In this document: positions 31,598-39,076 of the stretch, piece after piece | Position numbering within the stretch: position 1 is the first letter of the stretch | Layout: each line of letters starts with the position of its first letter | NCBI RefSeq assembly: GCF_040796495.1 | Contig: NZ_JBFNQN010000004.1 | Location: 248,001-312,000, forward strand | Reading direction: 5' to 3' | DNA from: Kineococcus endophyticus | Lineage (GTDB): Bacteria > Actinomycetota > Actinomycetes > Actinomycetales > Kineococcaceae | Length of the DNA: 64,000 nt | Position numbers and translations under genes: made by a program | Notes under the pieces: generated by a model | The model's database searches: none | Told to the model about the DNA's origin: nothing | What the model saw: only the letters and a program-made list of their open reading frames with translations

Positions 31598-33313
31598 TCA
31601 GGGCAGGGGGCCCGCCCGGTGCAGGGCGAACCACACGACCTTCCCCGTCCCCGGTCCGTCGGCCCCGTCCACGCGGTGGCACCCCCAGGCGTCCGCGGCG
31701 ACCTCGACGAGCTGCAGACCGCGGCCGGAGAGCGCGTCGGGATCGGTCGGCAGCACCTCGGGCAGCCGGTCGTTCTCGTCGGCCACCTCCACCAGCAGGC
31801 GGTCGGCCGAACTGGACACCTGCAGCCGGATGTCGCTGCGGCCGTGGGTCACGGCGTTCGTCACGAGTTCGCTCACGAGGAGTTCGGCGGTGTCGACGGC
31901 GTCCTCGTCCCAGCCGTCCGCCGGCGCCAGCTGCCGCACGACCCTGCGCGCGGCCGCCGCGGACCCGGGCGAGCAGGCCAGCACGACGACGCGTGAACTG
32001 CCCACCGCCTCGGCGTGGGCGAGGTGCTCGCCGCCCGCCGCTCCGGCCGCGGTGGCGTGCCCGCCGACGCCGACGAGCAGGATCGTGCGGTCGTCGTCGG
32101 GAACCCCGCCGCCGCTGCGCCCCAGCCGTTCGCACAGGTCCTGGGCCCGGAAGCGCTGCGGGTCGTCGAGGGTCCGTCCGAAGGCGACGAGCATCTGCTC
32201 CAGGTCGGACTCGCGGTCCTCCACCACTCCGTCGGTCACCAGGGCCAGGAGGCTGCCAGGGGCCAGCACCGCGCGGTGCTCGGTGCGCGACTGGGAGGCG
32301 TCGACGCCCAGCAGCAGGTCGTCGACACCGGAGTCGCGCAGGACCTCGACCCCGCCGTCGGGGCGGCGCACGAGCGGCGGCGGGTGGCCGGCGTTGGCCC
32401 ACCGCACGTCCAGCGCACCGCTCGGCTCGAGGGTCGCGGTCGCCAGGACCGCCGTGGCCAGGGTCCCGGGTTCGAGGGCGGCGACGACGGCGTCGAGCCG
32501 GTCCAGCAACCGCGCCGGGCCGTCGTCGCTGTCCCAGGCCAGCCCGCGCAGCATCGTGCGCAGCCGGGTCATGGCGGCCGCGGCCCGGGCGTCGTGCCCG
32601 GCGACGTCACCGATGGCGAGCAGCAGGTCCCCGCGGGACCGGGTGAGCACGTCGTACCAGTCGCCCCCGATGCTCGCGCCCGCCTGCACGGGCTGGTAGC
32701 TGACGCCGAGGTCGAGGCCGTCGACGGCGGGCAGGTGTGACAGGACCCCGCGCTGCAGCTCCTGGGCGAGCCCGACGACGAGCGCGGTCGCCTGGTCCTC
32801 GCGGTGCCGGGACACGACCCGGTGCAGCGACGGCGCGCAGTGCGCGGCGAACACCTCCAGGAGGGTCTCCTCCTGCTCGTCGAACGCGCCCGGGGCGACC
32901 CAGGAGACCGCCAGCGACCCGTACGTCTCGTCGGCGACGTGCAGGGGCAGCAGGGCCCACCGGGCGCGACCGGTGACGTCGACGACGTCGGCCATGCGCG
33001 GGTGCACGGCGAGCGCCGCCTCGCGGTCCGGGACCAGGTAGGTGCGCCCCTCGCGGGCGGCCCGGCACGCCGGCAGGGGGCTGTCGTGGGGTTCGTAGGA
33101 GAACCGGGAGCGCAGCTCGCTGCCGAAGGACGTCGCCAGCACGAGTTCCCAGCCGCCGTCCTGCGCCCGGGTCACCAGGCCGCAGCCCGCCGACCCCAGG
33201 ATCCGCAGCCCGTGGTCGGTGAGGGCGTGCAGGACGTCCTCGAGGGTGGCGGCCGCGCTGAGGCGCACGGCGAAGTCCGCCAGGTCCTCCCAGACCGACC
33301 GCGCACCGACCAT
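31598..33313 (-). CDS. GAF-PP2C (SpoIIE/RsbU) phosphatase with C-terminal RsbW-type ATPase
   Basis: 571 residues from ATG 33313, with AGGGAG five bases upstream. Order: GAF (about 15-175), PP2C (about 190-400; GGDWYDVL, IGDVAGHD, NAGHPPPL, VTDGVVE, DDDRTILLV), a helical linker, and HATPase_c_2 (about 450-570; SELVTNAVTHG, DENDRLPE, SGRGLQLVEV). It has the same architecture as the protein at 2637-5291 but one GAF fewer. It should act in a partner-switching circuit; no STAS or sigma factor gene is adjacent. It may share a transcript with the GGDEF-EAL gene 112 bp downstream. Confidence 0.9.
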   Translation of the reverse strand: MVGARSVWEDLADFAVRLSAAATLEDVLHALTDHGLRILGSAGCGLVTRAQDGGWELVLATSFGSELRSRFSYEPHDSPLPACRAAREGRTYLVPDREAALAVHPRMADVVDVTGRARWALLPLHVADETYGSLAVSWVAPGAFDEQEETLLEVFAAHCAPSLHRVVSRHREDQATALVVGLAQELQRGVLSHLPAVDGLDLGVSYQPVQAGASIGGDWYDVLTRSRGDLLLAIGDVAGHDARAAAAMTRLRTMLRGLAWDSDDGPARLLDRLDAVVAALEPGTLATAVLATATLEPSGALDVRWANAGHPPPLVRRPDGGVEVLRDSGVDDLLLGVDASQSRTEHRAVLAPGSLLALVTDGVVEDRESDLEQMLVAFGRTLDDPQRFRAQDLCERLGRSGGGVPDDDRTILLVGVGGHATAAGAAGGEHLAHAEAVGSSRVVVLACSPGSAAAARRVVRQLAPADGWDEDAVDTAELLVSELVTNAVTHGRSDIRLQVSSSADRLLVEVADENDRLPEVLPTDPDALSGRGLQLVEVAADAWGCHRVDGADGPGTGKVVWFALHRAGPLP

Positions 33314-33637
33314 CACGACTCCCTGTCGTCGGGCGGCGGGCCCTCCACGGGTCCTCGTCCGTCAACCCAAGAGCAGACCACACCGAGGGCACGGACGCCC
33401 GGTGTGCTGGGAGGTTCCTGGACCCTCGGTGCGGCACCCGACGGCGCGACGCCTGGACGGCGTCGGCGGGGACGACGCCGAACCCCGCGCGGGGTTCGGG
33501 CATCGGACGTGCAGCAGGTGGACGCGGGGCCGACGTCGGTGCGCGGGGGCGGAGGTGGAGGCCGCGACGTCAGCGGATCAGAAACGGAGAGGCCCCTCAA
33601 CATGGGAGAGATTGCTCCGCTTCGCTAGGGTCGAGGG
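33314..33637. other. Divergent intergenic region with tandem hairpins
   Basis: Between the phosphatase (minus) and a TetR gene (plus). Two directly adjoining hairpins, 33459-33479 (7-bp stem) and 33480-33497 (7-bp stem GAACCCC/GGGGTTC, GCGC loop), stand in the middle. No small gene is supported. Confidence 0.5.
33626..33631 (+). promoter_or_regulatory. -10 box TAGGGT, leaderless start
   Basis: TAGGGT ends 6 bp before GTG 33638, giving a predicted leaderless transcript for the TetR gene. Confidence 0.55.
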
Positions 33638-36837: not shown

Positions 36838-36848
36838 GGGGTCCTCAG
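36834..36848. terminator. Compact hairpin shared by convergent stops
   Basis: CTGAGG (36834-36839) pairs with CCTCAG (36843-36848) around a 3-nt loop. It contains the stop codons of both the TetR gene and the convergent EAL-DICT-LOV-GGDEF gene. Confidence 0.5.
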
Positions 36849-39076
36849 ACGGTGACGCGCCTCCGCTTCACCCGGTACATCGCGTGGTCGGCGGTCCGCA
36901 GCAGGTCCTCGAAAGTGCGCCCGTCCGCGCCGGACACCGAGACGCCCGTGCTGACCCCGAGCGAGAGCTGCACACCGTGCAGGTCGACGGGGTCGGCGAC
37001 GCGGGCGGCGACGTCGGCCACCGTGCGGGCGGCGACGTCGTCGGCGTCGTCGGGGTGCAGGCCGGTGAGCGCGACGATGAACTCGTCCCCGCCGAGGCGG
37101 GCGAGCACGGCGTCGGCCGGCGTCGACTGGCGCAGGCGCCGGGCCACCTCGACGAGCAGGTCGTCCCCGGCCGCGTGGCCGAGTTCGTCGTTGACGACCT
37201 TGAACCCGTCGAGGTCGCAGAACAGCAGGGCCGTGCGGGTGCCCTCGCGGCGGAGCGCGGCCTCGACGAGGGGTTCGACGTGCCGGCGGTTCGCGAGCCC
37301 GGTCAGCGGGTCGGTGAAGGCGAACCGCTCGATGCGCCGCAGGTGCTCGCGGGACCGTTCGCGTTCGAGGTCGAGCTCCTGCTCGGCCCGGACGCGGGCG
37401 GTGACGTCGTTCTGGACGCCGATGTACTGCACGACGCGGCCGGAGGCGTCGGTGACGGGGGCGAGGTACACCTCGTTCCACCAGGGTTCGCGCTGCGGGC
37501 CGCGGTAGTTCAGCAGCACCCCGCGCCACTCCAGGCCGCCCCGCAGGGCGGTGCGGATCTCGTCGACGGTCGTCCTGTCGGTGTCCGCGCCCTGCAGGAC
37601 ACGGCAGTTGCGGCCCAGGACGTCCTCGGCCCGCAGCCCGGAGAGTTCCTCGAAGGCGGAGTTCACGTACACCAGCGGTTCGTCCGGGCGCAGCATGTCC
37701 GCGATGGCGATGCCGCTCGTCGTCGCCCCGAGGGCGCGCTGCAGCAACGCCTCCGCGGCCTCGGGGGCCACGGCCGCGGGGATCCGCGCAGGGGCGGTGC
37801 GCCGCGGCACCGTGACGGGGGCCTCCGGGACGGTCGCGGTGCGCGGAGCGACGCGGGACAGCAGCGACTGGGCGGCCGCCGCGACGGTCGTGCGTTCGTA
37901 CGTCAGCGCGTACTCGAACATCCGTTCCCGCTCCGGGCCGGCGTCACCGAGGTCGCGCGCCAGCAGCGCCGCGGCGAAGTGCGGGGCGAGGACGACGACG
38001 TCCCACTCACCGCGGACGGGGTCGTGGGGGTCCAGGGCCGCCCCGCGCACACCGGGTAGGGGGGTCTCGGGCAGGTCCTCCCCGAGCGCGCAGACGAACC
38101 CCACGCGGTCGGCGAGGTCGCGGTAGCGGCTGCGGGTGGCGGGGGTGAAGTGCCGCGCGAACTGGAACGTGGAGGCGACGACGCAGGTGTCGCCCAGGCG
38201 CATGGCCTCGCGTTCGAGCTGCTTGCTCAGTTCGATGAGCAGCGCCTTGGGGGCGCGCCGCAACGGGGTTCCCGCGGGCAGCAGGGAGAACGGCGACGGG
38301 GTCTCGGCGGCGCTCACCGGCGCCGGCGGCGGCAGGACGAGCCCGGAGACCGCGGCCGTGGGCGGCGGCGGGGCGGAGGGGCGGCCGAACAACCAGCCCT
38401 GGCCCAGCTGGGCGCCGAGGGCGCGGGCGGTGAGCAGGTGCCCCTCGTCCTCGATCCCCTCGGCCAGCACCAGGGCGCCGGTCTCCTGGGCGTAGGCGTT
38501 CACCGCGTTCATGATCTGCGCGACCGCGGGGCCGGGCCGGTCCTGCACCAGGCGCAGGTCGAGCTTGACGACGTCCGGGCGCAGCAGCGGCATGAACGCC
38601 AGCGACATCGCGTCCGCCCCGACGTCGTCGAGGGCGATGGCCCAGCCGAGTTCGCGGACGCGGGTGACGGTGCGCAGGAGTTCGGCGGGGCGCGCTGCGA
38701 GGGCGCGTTCGGTCATCTCCACGACGACGCGCAGCCCGTCCAGGGTGCCGTCGGCGAGCGCCATGAGTTCGGCCAGCGGGGCGGCGTCGAGGATCTCCGG
38801 TTCGACGTTGACGAAGAGCGTCAGGGGCGCGACGACGCCGTGCTCCAGCGCCCCGCGCAGGGCCGCGGCCCGGCAGGCGTGGTCGAGCTCGGACAGCACG
38901 CCCTCGGCGCGGGCGGCGGCGAAGAGCTGGTCGGGGCGCTGCAGCGGGCCGACGGGGCCGCGGGCCAGGGCCTCGTACGCGACGACCGCGCCGGTGTCGA
39001 GGTCGACGATCGGCTGGTAGACGCTGTGGATGGCCTGCTCGCGCAGGACGTCGTGGATCGAAGAGCCGGTCGTCAC
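36845..39076 (-). CDS. EAL-DICT-LOV-GGDEF blue-light cyclic-di-GMP enzyme
   Basis: 743 residues from GTG 39076, with AAGGA six bases upstream. Order: EAL (about 10-245; YEALARG with E35, VEMTER, LDDVGAD in place of DDFGTG, VKLD, AEGIED, LGQGW), a Pro-rich linker, a DICT-type sensory domain (about 275-430), and a PAS domain of LOV type (about 450-565). The LOV core is GRNCRVLQ with Cys at about 491, the flavin-adduct residue; flavin-contact residues follow in LLNYRG, WWNEVYL and IGVQNDVT. GGDEF comes last (RLGGDEF at about 660) without an RxxD I-site. The degenerate loop-6 motif makes phosphodiesterase activity doubtful. Light should control cyclase output. Confidence 0.9.
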   Translation of the reverse strand: MTTGSSIHDVLREQAIHSVYQPIVDLDTGAVVAYEALARGPVGPLQRPDQLFAAARAEGVLSELDHACRAAALRGALEHGVVAPLTLFVNVEPEILDAAPLAELMALADGTLDGLRVVVEMTERALAARPAELLRTVTRVRELGWAIALDDVGADAMSLAFMPLLRPDVVKLDLRLVQDRPGPAVAQIMNAVNAYAQETGALVLAEGIEDEGHLLTARALGAQLGQGWLFGRPSAPPPPTAAVSGLVLPPPAPVSAAETPSPFSLLPAGTPLRRAPKALLIELSKQLEREAMRLGDTCVVASTFQFARHFTPATRSRYRDLADRVGFVCALGEDLPETPLPGVRGAALDPHDPVRGEWDVVVLAPHFAAALLARDLGDAGPERERMFEYALTYERTTVAAAAQSLLSRVAPRTATVPEAPVTVPRRTAPARIPAAVAPEAAEALLQRALGATTSGIAIADMLRPDEPLVYVNSAFEELSGLRAEDVLGRNCRVLQGADTDRTTVDEIRTALRGGLEWRGVLLNYRGPQREPWWNEVYLAPVTDASGRVVQYIGVQNDVTARVRAEQELDLERERSREHLRRIERFAFTDPLTGLANRRHVEPLVEAALRREGTRTALLFCDLDGFKVVNDELGHAAGDDLLVEVARRLRQSTPADAVLARLGGDEFIVALTGLHPDDADDVAARTVADVAARVADPVDLHGVQLSLGVSTGVSVSGADGRTFEDLLRTADHAMYRVKRRRVTV

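Follow-up and report, generated by a model that had tools for sequence, protein, structure and literature searches.

Single-chain proteins that combine LOV, GGDEF, and EAL domains, as well as LOV-GGDEF cyclases, are already known. Among the latter, the LadC proteins are required to carry the LOV motifs FxxxT(G/E)Y, Gx(N/D)C(R/H)(F/I)L(Q/A), and N(Y/F)xxx(G/D)xx(F/L)xN, and their linkers between LOV and GGDEF, when counted from D(I/V)(T/S) up to the leucine of DxLT, fall into two length classes of 35 and 21 residues (PMC10396304). Here, we describe a gene of Kineococcus endophyticus, located on the reverse strand of a 64,000-nucleotide stretch of contig NZ_JBFNQN010000004.1 (positions 248,001 to 312,000 of the contig; hereafter termed the window), whose product, P0001, is composed of EAL, DICT, LOV, and GGDEF domains in that order. 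It is tentatively proposed, with a confidence that falls just short of even, that P0001 is a light-regulated enzyme of cyclic diguanylate (c-di-GMP) metabolism in which a LadC-like cyclase operating without product feedback is coupled to an EAL-DICT portion that probably hydrolyzes c-di-GMP.

The open reading frame (Table 1) begins with a GTG codon at position 39076, 6 nucleotides downstream of the ribosome-binding-like sequence GAAGGA, and terminates with a stop codon at positions 36845 to 36847. All four domains (EAL, DICT, PAS, and GGDEF) exceed the curated cut-offs of Pfam, and the architecture is, therefore, not a product of chance, an explanation which was ruled out by these E values together with the existence of a homologous family. 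An earlier reading of the sequence alone (the sequence-only reading) had placed an EAL-DICT-LOV-GGDEF frame at this position and on this strand, as is confirmed here, and had remarked that its domain order differs from the common PAS-GGDEF-EAL order; the architecture is not peculiar to this gene, being found in relatives, in congeners, and in some DICT loci of other genomes. Among solved structures, the closest in sequence is 8c05, annotated as a "sensor domain-containing diguanylate cyclase," which covers the LOV-GGDEF half of the protein (1.7e-39) and which we assume to be the structure reported for LadC in PMC10396304.

The gene product is a member of a protein family that is conserved among soil actinobacteria. 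A protein search of genome contigs yielded 579 relatives, the best 80 of which were kept; among these 80, 22 (L002 to L023) align over nearly the entire query with 53 to 70% identity in the best segment, and they derive from Pseudokineococcus, Kineococcus, Geodermatophilus, Blastococcus, Motilibacter, Cellulomonas, and Quadrisphaera. One of the 22 (L022) has no LOV domain, and another (L023, of Geodermatophilus dictyosporus) is split over two reading frames, corresponding to query residues 14 to 330 and 329 to 740, which may reflect a pseudogene or a sequencing error. A nearly full-length copy was present in each of the 10 congeners searched (65 to 87% identity), that of G007 being interrupted by one internal TGA, and no record covering 80% of the query was found among the 5,000 records retained, the maximum possible, in a plasmid search. 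The DICT domain itself, which is matched once in the genome of K. endophyticus, occurs in 31 of 396 genomes of the phylum and 47 of 394 genomes of the class (two samples, each including the window's genome). In a census conducted with our own profiles on 57 loci drawn from these samples, being a subset of the listed places, 24 loci encoded DICT alone, 16 EAL-DICT, 5 EAL-DICT-LOV-GGDEF, 3 DICT-GGDEF, and 1 GGDEF-EAL-DICT, while 8 gave no match. As EAL is followed by DICT in 22 of the 57 loci, this pair is a common unit, behind which LOV-GGDEF stands in part of the cases.

In a quick tree built from the EAL-DICT portion of 67 rows, the proteins with a 35-residue linker fell into one clade of 41 rows with a Shimodaira-Hasegawa-like approximate likelihood ratio test (SH-aLRT) support of 100. 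Linker length changes once on this tree, although event counts are unsure given its long branches and open forks. L023, with its broken frame, was part of the first alignment and was left out afterwards; duplicates were dropped (L006, a duplicate of L093, and L123/L124, duplicates of L097/L098), as was L180, a second copy of L094; and L119 to L122, L125, and L127 to L129 (divergent paralogues or sequences without DICT), L145 (a cut frame), and census loci without an EAL match were left off the tree. Within the clade, 31 rows possess LOV and a GGDEF motif, 6 possess LOV with a broken GGDEF motif (L013 to L016, L017, and L087), and 4 (L112, L113, L022, and L018b) are without the LOV cysteine or the LOV domain, all 4 of which have also lost the cyclase. 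Blastococcus sp. TF02-09 harbors tandem copies, a complete EAL-DICT-LOV-GGDEF gene (L018:3977-6253) and, directly behind it, a second copy (about L018:6366-8171) with no LOV and a broken GGDEF. A second, divergent paralogue family was also observed in the genus Kineococcus, represented by L125 in the window's genome (G000:C14:132590-133333) and by L119, L120, L122, L127, and L129; its members carry DDLGA(D/E) or DDVGAD in loop 6, a D in place of E120, an apparent remnant of DICT, and a GGDEF-like region that lacks the motif.

The GGDEF motif (residues 662 to 666) of the window protein is intact, and D621, K626, N629, D630, H634, D638, and R660 are all present, while residues 653 to 656 read PADA in place of the RxxD of the I-site; a GGDEF domain devoid of an I-site had been claimed from the sequence alone and is borne out. 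Because the I-site is lost, the cyclase should run without product feedback, and, given that some I-site variants of MsLadC shift the protein toward dark activity (PMC12805367), it may in addition leak in the dark. RxxD is present in 34 of the 41 clade rows, being absent from the window, L083, L084, L085, L087, L092, and L185. The GGDEF motif is broken in nine clade rows, and L112 retains the letters GGDEF with other active-site residues gone; among the checked positions, L087 deviates from the full GGDEF set in no more than two, GGDAF and K626R. In the nine rows with a damaged active site (L013 to L017, L022, L018b, L112, and L113), which were compared with 25 intact rows picked for having an I-site, L087 being in neither group, R653, D656, and R660 are kept in 9/9, K626 in 0/9, N629, H634, and G663 in 1/9, and D621 and E665 in 2/9. 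This I-site retention is suggestive only, because 15 of 51 conserved columns are likewise kept in all nine rows.

The linker of the window protein shares its length of 35 residues with 8c05 and with all 37 clade rows that contain a cysteine-bearing LOV domain (36 counted by script and L185 by eye); five measured EAL-DICT-LOV-GGDEF rows outside the clade (L096, L116, L144, L170, and L186) have linkers of 21 residues. A single helix is predicted at residues 559 to 587 in the full-length model, and E571 and R572, located mid-linker within a hydrophobic pattern, are invariant in the 36 scripted rows, an arrangement which could permit a switch of coiled-coil register. In L112/L113, the linker displays a ratio of nonsynonymous to synonymous divergence (dN/dS) of 1.4. 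The window protein also carries the LadC motifs DxLT (DPLT, residues 589 to 592) and GG(D/E)EF (662 to 666), and has a single PAS/LOV stretch with a single GGDEF domain behind it, the preceding EAL and DICT domains not being barred by the wording of the LadC definition.

The EAL domain retains all eight metal-binding and catalytic residues (E35, N90, E120, D150, D151, K171, E206, and Q226) as well as the loop-6 anchor E123, and these nine residues are intact in 41/41 clade rows. Its loop 6 (DDVGADAMS) deviates from the EAL phosphodiesterase motif DDFG(T/A)G(Y/F)SS in the phenylalanine and in the second glycine; of the clade rows, 30 carry DDVGAD here and 11 carry DDVGAE. The designation "degenerate EAL" is, therefore, apt for loop 6 and inappropriate for the checked metal and catalytic residues, and a decaying EAL domain was ruled out by their invariance across the clade. 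Among 22 EAL-DICT frames found through DICT alone, the nine residues are kept in 18, EAL residues are lost in 3 (L139, L142, and L183), and 1 frame is cut (L145). All 18 residue-complete frames read DDVG or DDIG, and among the EAL-DICT proteins examined this loop is, at the level of sequence, a hallmark of the intact ones. Two EAL-DICT proteins from one other family of the order (L097 and L098) have lost nearly all EAL metal and catalytic residues, which indicates that DICT-linked EAL domains can become noncatalytic. The EAL domain of the window protein is considered probably competent as a phosphodiesterase.

With regard to the LOV domain, the window protein possesses the adduct cysteine within a GXNCRxLQ core (GRNCRVLQ) and keeps N490, Q495, N523, N534, and Q555 along with R492 and R508. 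The former five are presumed, by analogy, to be flavin contacts, and R492 and R508 are presumed to be phosphate arginines. C491, R492, L494, Q495, R508, N523, N534, and Q555 are invariant in 21 aligned sequences and N490 is nearly so, in agreement with the core and polar contact positions recognized in the sequence-only reading. L112 and L113 contain a LOV-like domain without the cysteine (core GRSARHLD), in which the N and Q contacts are gone too, and this joint loss argues that the remaining proteins bind flavin for a purpose. Flavin binding and light response are inferred for the window LOV domain.

In comparisons of the window protein with its four nearest relatives, and of these relatives with one another, nonsynonymous divergence (dN) amounts to 0.03 to 0.14 for EAL, 0.03 to 0.14 for DICT, 0.05 to 0.20 for LOV, and 0.08 to 0.36 for GGDEF, EAL and DICT thus exhibiting the lowest values, contrary to what decay of the EAL domain would entail. 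By these sequence measures, the EAL-DICT unit is the more constrained half of the protein. In the Blastococcus sequences L013 to L016, in which the GGDEF catalytic residues are lost, dN/dS is 0.12 for EAL, 0.14 for DICT, 0.18 for LOV, and 0.42 for GGDEF, LOV being as constrained as in five of six intact groups (0.17 to 0.26; 0.59 in the sixth, comprising L012 and L021); GGDEF values across intact groups range from 0.20 to 0.64. The continued constraint on LOV where the cyclase is gone suggests that LOV keeps a task, most simply the control of EAL-DICT. LOV, therefore, probably also serves EAL-DICT, as judged from few sequences and by a counting method.

Based on the above, we propose that P0001 would be a soluble, dimeric protein responsive to blue light. 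Illumination would lead to formation of a flavin adduct at Cys491 of LOV, upon which the LOV dimer would rearrange and shift the register of the 35-residue coiled-coil (residues 557 to 591), so as to join the two GGDEF domains for c-di-GMP synthesis, as in the long-linker MsLadC, with the lost I-site leaving the cyclase without product feedback. The EAL-DICT portion would most likely hydrolyze c-di-GMP under the control of EAL dimerization, its inputs being DICT (through a ligand) and the LOV dimer, such that one photoreceptor would shift the balance between two opposing outputs. A more far-reaching formulation, which we regard as possible though doubtful, is that one LOV dimer drives both a feedback-free C-terminal cyclase, through a LadC-like coiled-coil, and an N-terminal EAL-DICT phosphodiesterase, and that the GGDEF domain has moved both ways within the clade, toward an I-site-free cyclase in the window and its nearest kin and toward a noncatalytic I-site domain in Blastococcus, Quadrisphaera, and some paralogues, the latter reporting c-di-GMP to EAL and, wherever LOV has been retained, being controlled by it.

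Several points weigh against the proposal of a light-regulated, bifunctional enzyme. The window LOV domain matches none (0/3) of the LadC LOV motifs listed in PMC10396304, and confidence was lowered for this reason; across the 37 cysteine-bearing LOV rows of the clade, FxxxT(G/E)Y is matched in 0/37, the core motif in 28/37, and the N...N hairpin motif in 0/37, as opposed to 4/6, 5/6, and 1/6, respectively, in LOV-bearing rows outside the clade. V493 of the window protein occupies a position where 30/37 of the clade rows carry F, and the clade hairpin has W in place of the F of the motif. These misses indicate that the clade has its own LOV variant; the sequence-only reading had made no mention of the departure of the window LOV domain from the three motifs. 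The hairpin (RGPQREPWWNE in the window, residues 525 to 535, positions 37472 to 37504 of the reverse strand) also exceeds the published motif by one residue in 37/37 rows. The full-length model has a predicted local distance difference test (pLDDT) score below 50 over residues 413 to 496, leaving the LOV pocket without a usable model. LOV-GGDEF pieces of LOV-GGDEF-EAL proteins are reported to show no light-regulated synthesis (PMC10396304), and a Mesorhizobium LOV-GGDEF protein is repressed by light, so that the direction of the light effect is not safe. The GGDEF dN/dS of 0.42 in the broken group is not above that of some intact groups (0.41, 0.51, and 0.64), the loss of catalysis thus having caused no visible release of the domain; moreover, picking relatives by similarity favors conserved domains, and counting-based dN/dS is rough at high guanine-plus-cytosine (G+C) content. 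EAL residues are lost in L139, L142, and L183 and also in L097 and L098, implying that some EAL-DICT proteins do without catalysis. Finally, loop 6 of the window protein lacks the F and the second G, whereas in other EAL enzymes the F and both glycines are important for loop position (PMC2994820), and EAL turnover may, therefore, be low or absent.

This last point is also the foundation of an alternative that we consider unlikely, namely, that the protein is a light-controlled diguanylate cyclase whose EAL domain is catalytically silent and acts as a c-di-GMP sensor to tune the cyclase. YkuI, an EAL protein whose structure has been solved with c-di-GMP, departs from the motif in the same loop (aligned DNIGKESSNL), and a cyclase without an I-site would gain from another feedback sensor. 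Unlike the aligned YkuI, however, the window protein keeps both loop aspartates and the EGIE stretch, the conservation of the nine checked residues across the clade (41/41) and in 18 of the 22 census frames speaks against a silent domain, and FimX, an inactive EAL protein, is described as being without the metal motif (PMC5301497). The sequence-only reading had favored a light-controlled cyclase with a sensor-like EAL, of which the first part is consistent with the intact GGDEF domain and with a linker of the length found in a proven light-activated cyclase, whereas the second, a catalytically silent EAL, keeps some probability because loop 6 matters in other EAL enzymes, although the domain is not decaying. 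The converse assignment, in which the real output is a blue-light-regulated phosphodiesterase and the GGDEF domain, even with its motif intact, mainly binds GTP or c-di-GMP for regulation, appears distinctly less probable still. It has a precedent in SL2 of Synechococcus, a LOV-GGDEF-EAL blue-light phosphodiesterase (PMC8846402), and is consistent with the GGDEF dN/dS being the highest of the four domains in 7/8 groups (L112/L113 forming the exception), with the R653 and D656 retained in all nine rows with lost catalytic residues, and with the persisting constraint on LOV in L013 to L016; high GGDEF dN/dS is, however, found with intact motifs too, and L087, with its broken motif, is also without an I-site. 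The window GGDEF domain, which has all checked catalytic residues and no I-site, is the opposite of a binding-only GGDEF, and the invariant 35-residue linker matches that of a light-activated cyclase. Sensing of redox state or oxygen by a flavoprotein, rather than of light, was given more weight on account of the window's departure from the three published LOV motifs, and LOV-like domains may report flavin redox state, as with RmcA (PMC8846402). We nevertheless consider this very improbable, as the PASd domain of RmcA is described there as lacking the adduct cysteine, which is present in 37/41 clade rows, and as the two LOV-like rows without the cysteine have lost the flavin contacts too.

The presence of a DICT-type domain, likewise claimed earlier, was corroborated by the Pfam profile (PF10069), which scored 43.9 bits against a curated cut-off of 23.8 and matched 22/22 members of alignment A3 with E values of up to 5 (best, 1e-13). 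An AlphaFold2 model of the domain, generated from an alignment of 23 rows, one of which (L006) was cut at a misplaced stretch, displays an alpha/beta fold with a pLDDT of 88. No Foldseek match to this model was obtained at an E value of ≤0.001, and sequence searches revealed no credible solved relative (best E value, 0.43). A weak fold match (positions 37832 to 38329 of the reverse strand) was observed to polyphosphate kinase 1 (E value, 4e-3; probability, 0.99; template modeling score, 0.47), followed by dihydrodipicolinate reductases (probability, ≤0.41) and, weaker still, the NgoAVII R protein and Tdp1. Polyphosphate kinase 1, the NgoAVII R protein, and Tdp1 are presumably phospholipase-D-like; such a kinship of DICT is not claimed, as sequence searches gave no support for it. 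A 2022 review counts DICT among the domains without discernible purpose (PMC8846402). In a paper of 2021, DICT is cited as having been predicted to act in the response to light (PMC8612252).

Table 1. Coordinates of P0001 and its features in the window
Feature	Residues	Window positions	Strand	Basis
EAL-DICT-LOV-GGDEF protein (P0001)	743 aa	36845..39076	-	ORF with GTG start
EAL domain	11-233	38378..39046	-	Pfam-A, 3e-39
EAL loop 6, DDVGAD	150-155	38612..38629	-	alignment
DICT domain (predicted fold ~263-412)	274-375	37952..38257	-	Pfam-A, 3e-11
LOV domain (Pfam PAS)	445-558	37403..37744	-	Pfam-A
LOV core GRNCRVLQ, adduct cysteine C491	488-495	37592..37615	-	alignment
LOV-to-GGDEF linker, 35 residues	D557 (DVT) to L591 (DPLT)	37304..37408	-	motif count
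GGDEF domain	586-739	36860..37321	-	Pfam-A, 6e-39
Site of missing I-site (RxxD), PADA	653-656	37109..37120	-	alignment

An operon explanation was rejected. On one side of the gene stands a TetR-type gene in convergent orientation and on the other a ROK-type gene in divergent orientation, both named from a reading of their translations. When four neighbors from the window were compared by tblastn with 36 loci, the TetR-type gene was found beside 3 of the closest relatives, the ROK stretch beside 3 of them (matches which show DNA conservation only), and an oxidoreductase gene beside 2 of them, while a SpoIIE-like neighbor had a weak match near one locus (L002) only; the flanks of whole-genome loci extended to at most 1.5 kb, and the absence of a neighbor there means little. 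No promoter or terminator pattern was found at the gene, which is uninformative at this G+C content. A single frame at positions 31598 to 33316 (reverse strand) contains, according to its translation, a GAF-like stretch, one resembling a SpoIIE-like phosphatase, and a HATPase-like one, and may represent a stress signaling protein near the gene. The genome as a whole encodes five sequences with a canonical LOV core, the present gene included, and three PilZ domains as possible receivers of c-di-GMP. In one of the other LOV sequences (L191, G000:C2:369771-370124), the core is followed by the apparent start of a PP2C-type phosphatase, a possible link to the general stress response.

If the proposed bifunctional reading is correct, the family would provide a naturally occurring range, from a complete bifunctional enzyme through LOV proteins with a dead cyclase to LOV-less EAL-DICT proteins, in which signaling from one LOV dimer to both GGDEF and EAL could be studied. 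It would, furthermore, bear on whether a DDVG-type loop 6 permits catalysis, place DICT beside a light input in a testable protein, and suggest light control of c-di-GMP in free-living actinobacteria. A literature search (DICT with LOV and GGDEF; LOV, EAL, and GGDEF in actinobacteria), covering titles and the starts of abstracts among the matches listed, with catalogues of LOV proteins outside its scope, did not reveal a description of the EAL-DICT-LOV-GGDEF architecture, nor do the passages on the DICT domain in two papers that name it; we do not claim the protein as unreported.

Among described systems, LadC and MsLadC (PMC10396304 and PMC12805367) share with the window protein the order LOV-GGDEF, the 35-residue linker, the DxLT and GGDEF motifs, and, as judged by eye, a comparable spacing of the hydrophobic and polar positions along the linker. 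They differ in that the window protein lacks the defining LOV motifs, has no I-site where MsLadC possesses one, and adds EAL-DICT in front of LOV; P0001 was, therefore, not filed as a LadC protein, and the linker length is taken to support only a LadC-like manner of working. SL2 of Synechococcus elongatus (PMC8846402) likewise unites LOV, GGDEF, and EAL in one chain. In the window protein, EAL comes first and DICT is added, with LOV still directly before GGDEF. YkuI of Bacillus subtilis (EAL-YkuI_C) resembles the window protein in its noncanonical loop 6 and in the sequence which follows it, differing in that the window protein keeps the second loop aspartate and the EGIE stretch. It has the same order of an EAL domain first and a sensory domain behind and is not known to contain LOV or GGDEF. 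BlrP1, a BLUF-EAL blue-light phosphodiesterase, has a canonical loop 6 and is not known to contain a GGDEF domain. Its blue-light flavin sensor, which controls an EAL dimer in the way proposed in part for P0001, is of another photoreceptor fold than the window LOV domain (PMC3989770).

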